DNA of 64,000 nucleotides from Jannaschia helgolandensis. GTDB taxonomy: Bacteria > Pseudomonadota > Alphaproteobacteria > Rhodobacterales > Rhodobacteraceae. A program made the position numbers and the translations under genes. The notes under the pieces were generated by a model, which was given only the letters and a program-made list of their open reading frames with translations, was not told the origin of the DNA and searched no databases. How positions within the stretch are numbered: position 1 is the stretch's first letter; each line of letters opens with the position of its first letter. The stretch is from NCBI RefSeq assembly GCF_900109285.1, contig NZ_FNZQ01000004.1, positions 248,001 to 312,000 on the forward strand, read 5' to 3'. Of the stretch, positions 2,923 to 48,074 are shown piece by piece.

Positions 2923-4085
2923 ATAAGGCTCTCGGCGAGATACCATGTCGGCTGCCCGGCAAACGCCGGAAAGTCGGGGCTTTGCGGTTGCGATCCCTGG
3001 CCATGGCAACTTTGGCAGGACGGGATCCCGGCCTCTGCGATGCCGTCGAGGGCAATGCGTTAGCCAAGGGCCAGCAGCGCCTCGGGCGTGGAGGGCGTCC
3101 CGCCGGGAGCGGCCATCGGTACCGTGGCATAGCCAAGATCGGTGTCGCCCTCGAGAATCTCGGCCGCGTCCTGTGGAGTGTCGAGCGGAGGACCAGCGGG
3201 CAGGTGGCGATGCCTCTGCGTCCCTGTCGGCACCCGCGTCGGGGCCGGGTTCCGGCACGGGGCCGGGCTGTCGGGCAAAGTATCCGGCAAGTTCAGCGAG
3301 GGTCTGCGCATCATAACGGCTTGCGGGAGGCTGCATGAAGCCGCTTTCACGCCTGCCTTGCGCGAAGGCTGTAAGGTCGCGGAGAGATAGGGCGCGGGCT
3401 GACCCGCGATGATTGGAAAGGCACCGCTGGCCGCGCCCTGCCCCTGGCCCAGCCCATCCCGGCCATGGCAGCGGGCACAATTTTCCAATGCGTTCTCGAA
3501 AATGCCGTCCAGCGCCACCAGCGCCTGCCCGCCCGCCTCCACGTCGTAGTCCACAGTGCCGCCACCGAGGGCAAGATCGGCATAGGTCGCGGCGGTAATG
3601 TCTGGAAAGGCGCGCAGAAAGGCCACCTGCGCCCAGACCTCGTCATCTCGGCCCTGCGCCGGCCAGGCGGGCATCCCGGTATATTTGAACCCGTTCTTTA
3701 CTATCCAGAACAGTTCCTCGTCGCTCCAGTCCACGACGCTGTCCTCCAGCCGCGGCGGGGAAGGAACCATGTTGGCCACGACCGGAGACTGGCGTATGCC
3801 GGAGGCACCATAACAGGCGGCGCAGCTTGTCGCGTAATTACCGGCCGACCGCTGGATCAGGGCCGGATCGGACAGGTCCAGCCCCTCGGGCTTTTCGACC
3901 GGCGTTGACTGGGTGGCGACCGCGTTCTCCAGCGTCCAGCCAAGGAATCAGCGCGTTACAGGCCAGTGACCCGACGAGGCCGCGATCGAAACCAGACCCG
4001 ACCAGCCGACCAGCAATACCCCGGCAATGCCCAGAACCAGCAGGCCTGCCAACCGCTTCCAGGTCAGAACGATCCCCAGCCTCAT
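2919..4085 (-). pseudogene. multi-heme c-type cytochrome remnant (oxidase-associated)
   Basis: Read from the ATG at 4085, the product has a membrane anchor (RLAGLLVLGIAGVLLVGW), a conserved segment typical of cytochromes next to caa3/cbb-type oxidase genes (SSGHWPVTR, then ELFWIVKNGFKYTGMPAW), and three heme-c positions. The first reads CAACYG, with the heme-ligand His replaced by Tyr. The second is CARCHG and the third CQSCHG. An in-frame TGA follows VTR where relatives have Trp, and at least two frame changes occur between 3390 and 3060. The last heme segment ends in AGQPTWYLAESLM at 2919. The start overlaps the upstream stop as ATGA. Formerly a periplasmic electron carrier, now dead. Confidence 0.8.
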
Positions 4086-39120: not shown

Positions 39121-40173
39121 AGGAACAAGCTGTGTTATGGCGACAACCTCGCCGTCCTGCGGGAGAGTATCGCGACCGAGAGCGTCGACCTGATCTATCT
39201 GGACCCGCCGTTCAACTCGAATGCCAGCTATAACAAGCTGTTCAAGGCCCCGGACGGCAAAGACAGCCTCGCGCAGATCGAGGCGTTCGACGACACATGG
39301 TCGTGGAACGAGAGTGCCGAGCAGGCCTTTCAGGACGTCCGCCGCTCCGGCAACGTCGCCGCCCTGACCATGTTGCAGGCGATGCGGTCGTTTCTGGGCG
39401 AGAACGACATGATGGCCTATCTGTCGATGATGGCTGTGCGGATGCTGGAACTGCACCGGGTGCTGAAGCCGACGGGGTCGCTCTATCTGCACTGCGATAA
39501 TGAGGTCGTTTGGAAGCGAACTTTTGCACACGGGTCGGCCCATAAATGGGGACCTGTGCATGACACGATGCTATTCTATAGCCGCATCGACGTCACCCAC
39601 CTCGCCATCGGCCTGATCGAAAAGCGTTTGCGCGATGCCTACCGCGAGCGACCCGACGATCTCAACTTCAAGACCTACGGCGTCCCGCAGGATATCGAGG
39701 GCGCGCGCAACCTCGCCCGCCGGGGCCGCACGGAAGGCCGTCATTACTTCGAATTCGAGAAATGGGCCGTCTCCCTTCTGGCCGGGGAGCAGACGAAGAA
39801 CACCGGCGACGGCGGCATCGACGGCATCATCCCCTTCGGCAAGAAGTCCATGGCCGTCGTCTCGGTCAAGGCGGGCGAGAATGTCGGCGTCGCCATGATC
39901 CGCGACCTGCGCGGCGCGATGGAACGGACGGGGGCCGAGATCGGCATCTTCCTGACCCTCACGCCTCCCAAGGGCGGCATGGCCGCCGAGGCGGCGACGG
40001 CGGGCCAGCACGAGGAACCGGGCTTCACCCCCGTCCCCCGCATCCAGATCGTCACCATCGAGGATGCCATGGCGCTCCGCGACCGCGCCGCGCAAATTCC
40101 CGCCCGCCTCGGGTCCGTCCAGAAGGTCGCGCCGAAACAGAAGAACGACGCGGATCAGGGCAAACTTCTCTAG
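39121..40173 (+). pseudogene. DNA methyltransferase - restriction endonuclease fusion, gutted by deletions
   Basis: An N-terminal beta-class DNA methyltransferase part starts RNKLCYGDNLAVLRESI and has motif IV in LIYLDPPFNSNASY. Two in-frame deletions are evident from family comparison. At LHCD/NEVVWKRTFAHG about 20 residues are missing. At MLFYS/IDVTHLAIGLIEKR the whole middle with SAM-binding motif I is gone. A C-terminal Mrr-like PD-(D/E)xK part remains (GDGGIDGIIPFGKK, AVVSVKAG). No ATG, GTG or TTG occurs between the upstream stop at 39046 and residue RNKLC, so the start is lost too. The frame itself is open, so short products could form from internal ATGs, but catalysis as a methyltransferase is impossible. 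Confidence 0.8.
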
Positions 40174-41362: not shown

Positions 41363-42532
41363 TCAGCTTGGCCGGTCGTCTTTCCATTGCTGTAACTCAT
41401 CTGCCAGTCGCGACAGGGTGTCGGGACGATAGGACCTGAAATCCGGGTCCGTCGCCTCGTAGGCCCAGCGCTCACGGACGGCGGAATGCAGGTCGTCCAA
41501 CCGCAAGATCGCATCGCGCGGCGCACCGAACCGCCGCATCAGCGCGGCGACTGGCCCGCCTTTTGGCACGCTGGAATTCGCCAGCGGACCAAGCGGATCG
41601 CCCTCGGCCCTGATCGCGGCGGAGACGAGCGGGTCGAATTCCAGCCCCATGACGCCCGCGCCGTCCATCATCCAGTCCAGCGCGATCGCGCTGAGCGCGG
41701 TGATATCGCCGCCACCGCCGACCGATCCATGGTCGCCCGCGAAATGCTGCTGTCGATAGGGCGGGGTGGCATGGCCCCGGTTCAGCTCGTCCAGATTGGA
41801 CCACAGGGTCGGGCGAAACGCCCTGCGCCGCTCGTCGATGGCAACGGCGTGGCGCGCGGATTGGACCATTGGCGTCAGTGCTGTATCGTGGAAAGCGTAT
41901 TTCCTGTTCAACACCGGCGCCGCCGTGAAATACCCTGGCACGCCCAGCGCGCCCACCGTATCCCAGACACCCAGATAGGCCACGTCGAACAATACGGCCT
42001 CGTCCGCGCCGAATTCGGCATAGATATCGGCATCGTCGGGATCGGTCATGATGTGGGGCGAATTGAGCGCCCGCCATTCCGCGTTGCGCCGCTGACGTCG
42101 GTCCGCCGTTTCGATCCGACGCTCGGAATAGCGCGCGACCGCCTCCGGCAAAAGGTGCAGATCGGCACGTGCCAGAAGGCCCGTGAACCGGATCAACCCG
42201 ACAAGGGATCGCGCGGTGAAGGCGCCGCGGGAAAACCCGAAGACGAACACCTCGTCCCCCGGCTCGTAGAGAAAGACGAGGTGACGGTAGGCTTCGGTCA
42301 CGTTTTCCATCAGGCCCAGCCCCAGCACACCGCCCAACACGCGGTCCGTGGCGCGTGACAGGGCGGTCACACCACGCCGCCCTGTGCCCACCCCTTCGAT
42401 GTAGATCGGGATCTGCACAAGATCGTCCACCCCGACCGGAGCGAGAGCCTGGCCCAGCCGGACGACATTGGTAGGGTCGGGTGCTTCGGCGGCATTCCAG
42501 GTCCCGTCACACAGAAGAACGATGCGTTTCAT
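41363..42532 (-). CDS. DUF2235 alpha/beta-hydrolase-like protein
   Basis: A 389-residue protein that starts MKRIVLLCDGTWNAAEAPDP. It has the nucleophile elbow GFSRG (99-103, S101) and the conserved VWDTVGALG, the signature of DUF2235. Some members are type VI secretion phospholipase effectors (Tle1-like), but most are stand-alone cytosolic proteins; no T6SS genes are nearby. No signal peptide. Confidence 0.9.
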   Translation of the reverse strand: MKRIVLLCDGTWNAAEAPDPTNVVRLGQALAPVGVDDLVQIPIYIEGVGTGRRGVTALSRATDRVLGGVLGLGLMENVTEAYRHLVFLYEPGDEVFVFGFSRGAFTARSLVGLIRFTGLLARADLHLLPEAVARYSERRIETADRRQRRNAEWRALNSPHIMTDPDDADIYAEFGADEAVLFDVAYLGVWDTVGALGVPGYFTAAPVLNRKYAFHDTALTPMVQSARHAVAIDERRRAFRPTLWSNLDELNRGHATPPYRQQHFAGDHGSVGGGGDITALSAIALDWMMDGAGVMGLEFDPLVSAAIRAEGDPLGPLANSSVPKGGPVAALMRRFGAPRDAILRLDDLHSAVRERWAYEATDPDFRSYRPDTLSRLADELQQWKDDRPS

Positions 42533-44710: not shown

Positions 44711-45697
44711 ATGGCAGATGGTGCGATGGACATGATGGCGGAACCGACCAAGGACTTTTCCGTCCGCGAGGTGTTCGGCATCGACAGCAACATGATCATC
44801 AAGGGGTTTCCCAAAGGCGGCGACCGCGTGCCGGTCATGGACCCGACCTACAAGTTCGATCCCGATACCACGCTGGCGATTCTGGCGGGCTTCGGCTGGA
44901 ACCGCCGGGTGATGATCCAGGGCTATCACGGCACCGGGAAATCGACACACATCGAACAGGTCGCCGCGCGCCTGAACTGGCCCTGCGTCCGCGTGAATCT
45001 CGACAGCCATATCAGCCGGATCGACCTGATCGGCAAGGATGCGATCAAGCTGCGCGACGGCGTGCAGGTCACCGAATTCCACGAAGGCATCCTGCCCTGG
45101 GCGCTACGGAACCCTGTCGCCATCGTGTTCGACGAATACGACGCGGGCCGTGCCGACGTGATGTTCGTGATCCAGCGCGTGCTGGAACATGACGGCAAGC
45201 TGACCCTGATGGACCAGAACACCATCATCGAACCGCACCCGTCCTTCCGCCTGTTCGCCACTGCCAACACGGTCGGCCTGGGCGACACGACGGGCCTGTA
45301 TCATGGCACGCAACAGATCAACCAGGCGCAGATGGACCGCTGGTCGCTGGTGGCAACGCTGAACTATCTGAGCCACGACGCCGAGACGATGATCGTTCTG
45401 GCCAAGAACGCGCATTACAATACCGAGGCCGGGCGCAAGACCGTCAGCCGCATGGTCACCGTCGCCGACATGACCCGGACCGCATTCATGAACGGCGACC
45501 TGTCCACCGTCATGTCGCCCCGCACCGTGCTGGCCTGGGCCCAGAACGCCGAGATCTTCCGCGACGTGGGATATGCGTTCCGCCTGACGTTCCTGAACAA
45601 ATGCGACGAGCTGGAGCGGCAGACCGTGGCGGAGTTCTACCAGCGGTGCTTCGACGAGGAACTGCCGGAGAGTGCGGCGAGTCTGAGCTTGGGGTGA
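44711..45697 (+). CDS. cobS: cobaltochelatase AAA subunit CobS
   Basis: A 328-residue AAA+ ATPase of the aerobic cobalt chelatase (CobN-CobS-CobT), which inserts Co2+ into hydrogenobyrinic acid a,c-diamide in B12 synthesis. Walker A is GYHGTGKST (71-79), Walker B is [11 protein letters not shown] (136-146), and [20 protein letters not shown] is the sensor region. The N-terminal [10 protein letters not shown] is typical. The stop overlaps the next gene's ATG (TGATG). cobN is not in the window. Confidence 0.95.
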
Positions 45698-46206
45698 TGT
45701 GGGCTGAGTGGACGACTGCTCAGATAGCGTTGATATTCAGCGCCTTCTCTCTCTGTATCTCGTTATGCGGCTTTGTCTGGAATGTTTGGTCAAAATTTAT
45801 CTACCCTAAGCCACAGCTTCAGATGTCAGTGGGCAGGTTCGTCGGGTTTGGGAGCAAAAATTCTGACAAGCTCGAGTTCGTCATCGCGACAATCGTGAAC
45901 CACGGTCCAATTGCATGTACAGTCAAACTATTTATCGGGCGACGACCTCGTTGGCACACAGTAGCAACTAGGCGGTTCCAAGGATTCATTGTGAAGACAT
46001 GGGATGCAAAGCCTGCTCTTCTTCCAATAGAGCTTCCGTGCACGATTGACGTAGGAGAGGAGAAGCAGTTTTATTTCTCTTCGGACGTCGAATGGTCACT
46101 GGAAAAAAATCGATTTCAGTTGGGGATCGCTGATGTTTATGGGCGCCATCATTGGGTGCCCCGCCGGACAATGAAAAAGCTTACGGAGTCTGGAAAGTCA
46201 CCATGA
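45697..46206 (+). CDS. orphan single-helix protein inserted between cobS and cobT
   Basis: A 169-residue protein of unknown function. One N-terminal membrane helix ([19 protein letters not shown]) is followed by the juxtamembrane segment [20 protein letters not shown] and a beta-rich soluble part ([38 protein letters not shown]). The gene is visibly AT-richer than its neighbours, with codons (AAA, TTT, ATA) rare in the window. Its ATG overlaps the cobS stop (TGATG) and its stop overlaps the cobT ATG (ATGA), so it is spliced into the operon without a gap. Signs point to a horizontally gained insertion that kept translational coupling. Confidence 0.7.
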
Positions 46207-48074
46207 ATAAGCCAACCGACAACCCCGCCGATCCGTTCAAGAAGGCCCTCGCCGAGGCCACCAAGACCATGGCCGACGATCCGGAGCTGAACGTCTCGTT
46301 CTCCGTCGATCCGCCGGGCAAGACCGACGACAGCATCCGCCTGCCGCAGGTCAGCCGCCGCATGACCCGCGACGAAGTGCTGCTGTCGCGCGGCACCGCC
46401 GACGCTTTCGCCCTGCGCCACCGCCACCACGACATCGCGGTGGCCAACAAGTACATGCCACAGGGCAACATGGCGCGCGAGTTGTACGAAGCGATGGAAA
46501 CCGCCCGATGCGAGGCGGTCGGCGCCCGCGACATGCCCGGCACCGCGGGCAACATCGACGCCAAGATCAGTGTCGAGGCGACGCGCAAGGGCTATGGCGA
46601 CGTGACCGACAAGGCGCAGATTCCGCTGGCTTCCGCCGTCGGATATTGGGTCCGCCAGATGGCCACGGGCCGCGACATGCCCAAGGGCGCGGACAATGCC
46701 CTGGACCTGTGGCGCGGCTTCATCGAGGAATCGGTGGGTGACCGACTGGACAACGTGCAGGACCTGCTGGCCGACCAGTCCGCCTTCGCCCGCCTTGCCC
46801 GCCAGATGATCGAGGACCTGGGCTACGGCGACCAGCTGGGCGACGACCCCGATATCGAAGACGAGGATCAGGAGGACGAGGGCCAGTCCGAGGAAGAGGA
46901 GGAGCCCGACAGCACCGGCGACGACGATCAGGAGGACGCCGATGCCGACGCTTCGCCGGATCAGTCGCAGGAGCAGCAGGACGACCCCAGCCAGGCCCAG
47001 GTCAGCATGGACGACATGGCCGATCAGGAAGCCGGTGAAGAGGCGGAGATGCCCGACTCGGACGAGGCGAAGGACCCTCCCGCCCCGCAGCCGGTATCGG
47101 ACGCCGACCCGAATTACACTGTCTTCACCGAAGCTTTTGACGAGATCGTCGGGGCCGCCGACCTTGCCGAACCGGCGGAGCTGGAGCGTTTGCGCGCCTA
47201 TCTGGATCAGCAGTTGGAGCCGCTGAAGGGCGCGGTGTCGCGACTTGCGAACAAGTTGCAGCGCCGTTTGCAGGCTCAGCAAAACCGCTCGTGGGAGTTC
47301 GACCTTGAGGAAGGCATCCTTGACGCCGGACGTCTGGCCCGCGTCGTCGCCAACCCCACCACCCCCCTGTCGTTCAAGATGGAGCGGGATACCGAGTTCC
47401 GCGATACCTGCGTGACGCTTCTTCTGGATAATTCCGGCTCGATGCGCGGACGTCCGATTTCGATCGCCGCGATCTGCGCCGACGTTCTGGCGCGGACGCT
47501 GGAACGCTGCGGTGTGAAGGTCGAGATACTGGGCTTTACCACCAAGGCGTGGAAGGGCGGACAATCCCGCGAGGCCTGGCTCAAGGCCGAACGCCCCGCC
47601 TCGCCCGGTCGCCTGAACGACCTGCGCCACATCATCTACAAATCCGCCGATGCGCCATGGCGCCGGGTGCGCCCGAACCTTGGGCTGATGATGAAGGAAG
47701 GCCTGCTGAAGGAAAACATCGACAGCGAGGCGCTGGAATGGGCGCACCGCCGCGCCACCGCCCGGCCCGAGGCGCGCAAGATCCTGATGGTGATTTCCGA
47801 TGGTGCGCCGGTCGACGACAGCACCCTGTCGGTGAACCCGGCAAACTTTCTGGAAAAGCATCTGCGCGACGTGATCGCCATGGTCGAGAAACGCCGCGCG
47901 GTCGAACTGCTGGCCATCGGCATCGGGCATGACGTGACGCGGTATTACGACCGGGCCGTAACGATCACGGACGTCGAGCAGCTGGCGGGCGCGATGACAG
48001 AACAGCTGGCCGCCTTGTTCGACAGCGATCCGCGCGCAAGGGCGCGGGTGATGGGAATGCGCCGCGCCTCCTGA
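46203..48074 (+). CDS. cobT: cobaltochelatase subunit CobT
   Basis: A 623-residue partner of CobS. The N-terminal CobT domain ([20 protein letters not shown]) is followed by a low-complexity acidic stretch of mostly Asp/Glu/Gln (about 215-300). The C-terminal von Willebrand A domain has MIDAS D409-x-S411-x-S413 ([11 protein letters not shown]). It couples ATP hydrolysis by CobS to CobN. The ATG lies inside the stop of the upstream gene. Confidence 0.95.

Follow-up and report, generated by a model that had tools for sequence, protein, structure and literature searches.

INTRODUCTION

Among the described kinds of gene that come close to the one considered here is the prophage 'moron', or lysogenic-conversion gene. 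Roseobacter phages that carry cobS and cobT of their own, and that integrate at tRNA-Thr, are described in part of one published account (PMC11288001). In the literature on cobS/cobT gene order, on cobS as an integration site, and on defence islands and Kiwa, no description of the cobS-cobT junction was found. Here, we describe a 169-residue open reading frame (ORF) that lies precisely at this junction in a 64,000-nt stretch of Jannaschia helgolandensis DNA (the window), and the protein family to which it belongs. We consider it likely that this is a horizontally moved accessory gene that docked at the cobS stop codon, within a slot that holds variable cargo, and that is carried there as an operon passenger via translational coupling, with a phage-related job rather than one in the chelatase. 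New here are the protein family and the finding that it lies at the cobS stop in several genomes.

RESULTS

The inserted gene overlaps cobS and cobT and differs from them in composition

The features of the region are listed below in window coordinates.

39370-40173, + strand: ORF with an Mrr-type restriction endonuclease domain (PF04471, 4.1e-9), ~5.5 kb upstream of the insert
41363-42532, - strand: Tle1-like phospholipase catalytic domain protein (PF09994, 3.8e-74), upstream of cobS
44711-45697, + strand: cobS, cobaltochelatase subunit CobS (TIGR01650, 581 bits, above cut-off)
45695-45699, + strand: TGATG junction of the cobS stop and the inserted-ORF start, 1-nt overlap (read from the sequence)
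45697-46206, + strand: inserted ORF, 169 residues, predicted to be N-terminally membrane-anchored (translation, homologs, alignment A2, composition)
46203-46206, + strand: ATGA junction of the inserted-ORF stop and the cobT start, 4-nt overlap (read from the sequence)
46203-48074, + strand: cobT, cobaltochelatase subunit CobT (TIGR01651, 815 bits, above cut-off)

The TGA stop of cobS occupies positions 45695-45697, and its final A is also the A of the ATG of the inserted ORF (45697), which in turn ends with a TGA at 46204-46206, within the overlap with cobT. Reading of the sequence thus confirms the 169-residue ORF and the TGATG and ATGA overlaps given in the preliminary description of this locus. 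The lower G+C that had also been claimed is evident (0.487 vs 0.625 for cobS and 0.658 for cobT), and the codon adaptation of the inserted ORF is likewise low, at 0.416 vs 0.820 and 0.791 for cobS and cobT, respectively. This value lies below those of all 40 other long window ORFs classed as genes by a third-position G+C heuristic (minimum 0.422, median 0.681).

The Kyte-Doolittle profile of the inserted protein, averaged over 19 residues, is characterized by a sole clear hydrophobic segment at residues 10-28 (mean 2.23), and by a second, weaker peak at residues 62-80 (1.54). The lysines and arginines come after the first segment, and by the positive-inside rule a positively charged flank is expected on the cytoplasmic side. 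As the positive residues follow the helix, the protein would be anchored in the inner membrane by this one helix, with a domain of ~135 residues on the cytoplasmic side. The term 'single-helix protein' that was first applied to it holds for the first ~30 residues, and not for the rest of the 169.

In agreement with the earlier statement that no domain could be recognised, searches of the inserted protein against Pfam, NCBIfam, PHROGs and PADLOC gave zero matches at E<=1. A match to a standard CobST accessory profile was sought among these, and none to the Cob models of Pfam and NCBIfam was obtained at E<=1; likewise, no known anti-phage defence model was matched in PADLOC, which was searched with the window protein only. 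We take the inserted ORF to be a real gene because 12 columns are invariant among 20 aligned members, and because its identity to the nearest homolog by codon position (G855; 0.53/0.69/0.38) fits constraint at the protein level. The invariant residues (T7, A11, S15, W28, N29, K33, P37, N68, G70, G120, D146 and H152 in alignment A2, which has the window protein among its 20 rows, so that this protein has them by construction) are common to homologs in several alphaproteobacterial families, and on these grounds, together with the codon-position constraint, a spurious ORF was ruled out.

Promoter and terminator scans of the region gave results at chance level. Among nine window ORFs scanned, the Mrr-domain ORF is the only restriction-like neighbour found near the insert; the N-terminal part of this ORF is methyltransferase-like, as judged by eye. 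No trace of a route of entry was seen: no integrase or transposase is present among nine neighbouring ORFs scanned, a selection of those between 39370 and 51610, and no direct repeat flanks the gene.

Members of the family are few and scattered

A pattern-based scan for the protein family in 84,980 species genomes gave 14 loci. Within the genus, the gene is present in 1 of 20 genomes, and the other 19 are without it; a second genus match, at E 0.29, was dismissed. The family-level search, covering 394 genomes at E<=0.01, returned four, this genome included, and two of the other three (of 393) hold up. A match in G038 (E 0.005) was not reproduced by tblastn and was left uncounted. The profile search at the level of the order matched 7 of 390 genomes, a number that includes this genome and takes in the broken copies in G1024 and G938 as well as a fragment in G873, and at the level of the class the family occurs in 2 of 385 genomes, again with this one included. 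The same gene, with normal composition, is therefore not what most relatives carry (1 of 20 in the genus, 7 of 390 in the order), and the foreign composition and patchy occurrence both support the original view that the gene is an inserted one.

In all, 20 cellular loci were considered, each counted once, namely this genome, L006-L019, G302, G255, G855, G1024 and the G873 fragment (one contig stands behind both L018 and G938, and another behind both L013 and G558, and each pair has a single count). Identity to the inserted protein is 25-38% for the homologs in alignment A2 and 47% for G855. The G+C of the family gene is lower than that of its locus in 20 of 21 copies, with L012 being level. 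The 20 members of A2 gave one marginal match each in Pfam and PHROGs (E 0.039 and 0.062, respectively), neither of known function, and a profile search against solved structures gave a best E of 0.38, which is not meaningful. A single-sequence search of named phage and plasmid collections gave no match. The family is patchy, fast-diverging, alphaproteobacterial and previously undescribed, and its predicted architecture is one clear membrane helix followed by the domain of ~135 residues.

Homologs occur in phage contigs and in places beside anti-phage genes

In the viral collection, seven contigs encode a family member, and all seven also encode at least one terminase, portal, head or integrase protein. 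In the L066 prophage, the family copy adjoins an integrase. A tRNA gene lies within ~230 nt upstream of three copies, and is tRNA-Ser for L003/L071 and for L018, and tRNA-Lys for L010. A further contig, L077, is the sole one in the viral collection to match a degenerate cobS 3'-end pattern; past its cobS 3' end come an ORF that looks transposase-like and genes that look phage-like, all named by eye, and the contig is uninformative for the inserted gene.

Anti-phage genes are found near several homologs. L012 contains a complete Kiwa pair alongside the family member (KwaB 4e-108, KwaA 8e-75). At L006:133-1410, a reverse transcriptase (PF00078; best specific PADLOC class RT_UG17) ends 13 nt upstream of the family member, on the same strand and with the same low G+C, and the two possibly form a two-gene unit. 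The phage contig L065 encodes an OLD/GajA-like ATPase, which has a TOPRIM domain, ~450 nt downstream of the family gene. In L014, the gene for an AriA/GajA-like ATPase is found ~2.2 kb downstream, in L064 a protein with a weak TIR-like match (2.6e-6) is encoded ~170 nt downstream, and in L128 NsnA-like and HEPN genes lie alongside the family fragment. The scanned neighbours in e.g. L008, L011, L013 and L068 gave no defence match. Scanned neighbours were hand-picked as promising, and the tally of defence neighbours is a lead rather than an enrichment. It is possible, and we suggest it tentatively, that the inserted protein has a job in phage exclusion or defence at the inner membrane.

Gene content between cobS and cobT varies across Rhodobacteraceae

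The preliminary description took cobS and cobT to be normally adjacent, and this does not hold across the family. Interval lengths were obtained from the 110 genomes that appear in both the cobS and the cobT lists, among the matches listed and with higher scorers over-represented, of which 102 have both genes on the same strand and contig within 20 kb. With this genome set aside, the remaining 101 have a median interval of 923 bp, and 26 of their intervals are of <300 bp and 4 of <50 bp (among the matches listed). In the genus, where cobT was found in 20 of 20 genomes, the interval ranges from 73 to 2840 bp in the 18 of 19 other genomes for which it was resolved; in G404, cobS was not found in the stretch fetched, so this interval is missing from the range. 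The contents vary from minus-strand secreted proteins to plus-strand secreted proteins, a racemase, a protein that we take to be TRAP/TAXI-like, or nearly nothing. As minus-strand genes lie between cobS and cobT in some genus members (e.g. L049, L052 and L054), cobT probably needs its own promoter there. In a set of 59 intervals (this genome, 18 genus genomes and 40 evenly picked from 72 family genomes with 300-3300 bp), single-linkage clustering places a ~130-residue secreted protein in 26 and the racemase in 14.

Genus intervals are mostly of near-host G+C, the exceptions being L042 and this genome. In L042, from the near relative G405, a putative hydrophobic ORF of 63 residues (3483-3674) is low in G+C and differs from the inserted gene; it has a GTGA start within the cobS stop and overlaps the cobT start. 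In G243, a DUF1877 gene with a G+C of 0.51 (L136:4752-5237, - strand) is located a few bases past the cobS stop and before the usual interval genes, as another foreign-looking occupant of the slot. The genus genome G410 (L040) has a second CobT-like C-terminal domain elsewhere, 41% identical over residues 389-599.

With G255, G855 and G1024 added to the 59 intervals, 62 junctions could be compared. In 16 of these, the cobS stop contains the start of an ORF of ≥50 residues; with the four insert-family copies subtracted, this is 12 of 58, and some of these 12 are possibly not real genes. In L050, from the same genus, the start of an Asp/Glu racemase gene (PF01177, 1.1e-15) is at TGATG, and the gene shares 4 nt with cobT. 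Because this racemase overlaps cobS and cobT alike, the inserted gene is not alone in its double overlap, and the earlier suggestion that the overlap marks the gene as special is not supported.

Copies at the cobS stop and the history of the inserted gene

Five of the 20 cellular loci have the family gene directly at the cobS stop, and 15 have it elsewhere. In two other genera, L070 (G255) and L125 (G855) contain an intact gene between cobS and cobT with identical TGATG and ATGA overlaps. In L126 (G1024), the copy is broken, with a GTGA start in the cobS stop and a frame that ends after 94 residues; both cobS and cobT are kept, separated by 1774 bp, and a protein that by eye resembles the common ~130-residue secreted one is still present between them. 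In L009, a Caulobacteraceae metagenome-assembled genome (MAG), the gene is at TGATG after cobS, and cobT is on another contig. The other homolog loci showed no cobS match, and some of them start near a contig end.

The double overlaps in three genera, with the gene intact in all three, its position adjoining cobS in the Caulobacteraceae MAG too, and the protein-level constraint are each consistent with a chelatase accessory protein that would tether or regulate CobST at the membrane and be retained by selection in a few lineages. Against such a protein stand the 15 loci away from cobS, the unlinked cobT of the Caulobacteraceae locus and the homologs in phage contigs, as well as a disparity in occurrence: of 248 family genomes, 237 have cobS and 240 have cobT, whereas the inserted family is found in 4 of 394 (E<=0.01). 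Moreover, G1024 has kept cobS and cobT with a broken copy of the gene. We regard this explanation as quite improbable, and a chelatase role of the insert, which had been raised as an action on the chelatase, is not supported.

In the protein tree, the inserted protein is closest to the G855 copy (support 99/94). Support for a group of the four Rhodobacteraceae cobS-site copies is weak (35/89), and a single clade of all five cobS-site copies is not rejected (p-AU 0.289). At the position where most other copies read M-T-T-A, M being the start methionine, the four Rhodobacteraceae copies read W-[ST]-T-A. Quick trees of cobS and cobT, of 31 and 29 rows with about a dozen outside the genus and with many weak forks, place this genome among its genus, and G255, G855 and G1024 outside. 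These trees disagree with the distribution of the insert, and thus the history of the inserted gene, as read from the sequences, appears to differ from that of the flanking cobS and cobT. In cobS and cobT, identity to G855 or G255 is not clearly raised over any block that would indicate an exchange tract.

The W-[ST]-T-A motif, the three identical double overlaps and the single clade of five that is not rejected would also suit old vertical inheritance, in which the gene was part of an ancestral cobST operon and was lost in almost all descendants. Such a history would, however, require losses in nearly every sampled genus, and is opposed by the 19 other genus members without the gene, by its foreign composition, and by the pairing of this genome with G855 in the protein tree, as opposed to the cobS and cobT trees that put G255, G855 and G1024 outside the genus. 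We find it very improbable. For a horizontally moved gene, arrivals of the family at cobS may number from one to three. By hand arithmetic, two of ~17 placements falling on one gene of ~4000 has a probability of ~3% by chance, the exact stop-codon position aside.

A further explanation is that the 3' end of cobS is a site-specific integration site, as at tRNA 3' ends, and that the gene is the part of an integrated element that was left nearest to the site. The 5 of 20 cellular loci that start in the cobS stop point in this direction, as do the three more that lie shortly downstream of a tRNA gene, the L066 copy beside its integrase and the G1024 broken copy, which sits at cobS with other interval genes still downstream. 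The traces of integration that were sought gave, however, nothing convincing. Direct repeats of at least 12 nt number zero in window 45500-46400 and in L070:6150-7050, and in L125 there are only a 14-nt pair with one mismatch and a 21-nt pair that matches at 76%, both of them chance-like. In the 9 of 12 fetched cobS regions that extend >1 kb downstream, no obvious integrase is present among the downstream ORFs, which were judged by eye, two of them, in L136, being scanned against families. Finally, the L066 and L069 recombinases and an L016 ORF, used as tblastn queries, gave self-matches only. An integration site of this kind is thus unlikely in our view.

DISCUSSION

Taken as a horizontally moved passenger, the gene would have entered by horizontal transfer into a tolerant cobS-cobT slot. 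Judging from the overlaps, ribosomes that end CobS would re-initiate at TGATG to yield the inserted protein, and re-initiation at ATGA would in turn yield CobT; with coupling at TGATG, the inserted gene would need no promoter of its own. The preliminary description offered a passenger tuned to operon expression, and of this we retain a passenger that would be expressed with the operon. The anchored protein may then serve as a phage-related accessory factor, in exclusion or defence, and not as a chelatase subunit. A bolder form of this proposal, which we hold to be rather doubtful, is that the cobS stop repeatedly serves as the docking point of a mobile single gene, the family having reached it on more than one occasion, in Rhodobacteraceae and Caulobacteraceae, and always starting inside the stop, and that the core operon provides an expression platform for a membrane-anchored defence or exclusion protein.

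The locus draws attention to a small family that has no significant library match (Pfam and PHROGs for the 20 members, NCBIfam and PADLOC for the window protein), and that occurs in phage contigs and sometimes by anti-phage genes. It also shows that unrelated genes, some of which have codon-level overlaps, occupy a variable slot at one junction of a core operon. If docking is repeated and targeted, it would provide a promoterless expression route for mobile genes, and the search for genes starting inside the cobS stop would be a simple rule by which more cargo may be found.

In comparison with known systems, the family resembles prophage morons in that its genes are small, mostly lower in G+C (20 of 21), patchy, and present in phage contigs (7 of 7 with hallmark genes), whereas the window gene is chromosomal, stands alone, overlaps two core genes, and has no phage gene among the nine neighbouring window ORFs scanned. 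The resemblance to defence-island accessory proteins lies in the several homologs that adjoin Kiwa, reverse transcriptase, OLD/Gabija-like and AriA-like genes; the window protein differs in having no PADLOC match, and its setting in having one Mrr-domain ORF ~5.5 kb upstream. With CobN, CobS and CobT, the window gene shares the operon and the coupling layout, although the insert lacks similarity to Cob models, and most sampled genomes with cobS and cobT are without it. Finally, the other interval genes, i.e. the Asp/Glu racemase and the ~130-residue secreted protein, recur more widely than the insert (14 and 26 of 59, respectively), and the intervals of the genus are mostly of near-host G+C; these genes occupy the same slot, and the L050 racemase does so with the same overlaps.
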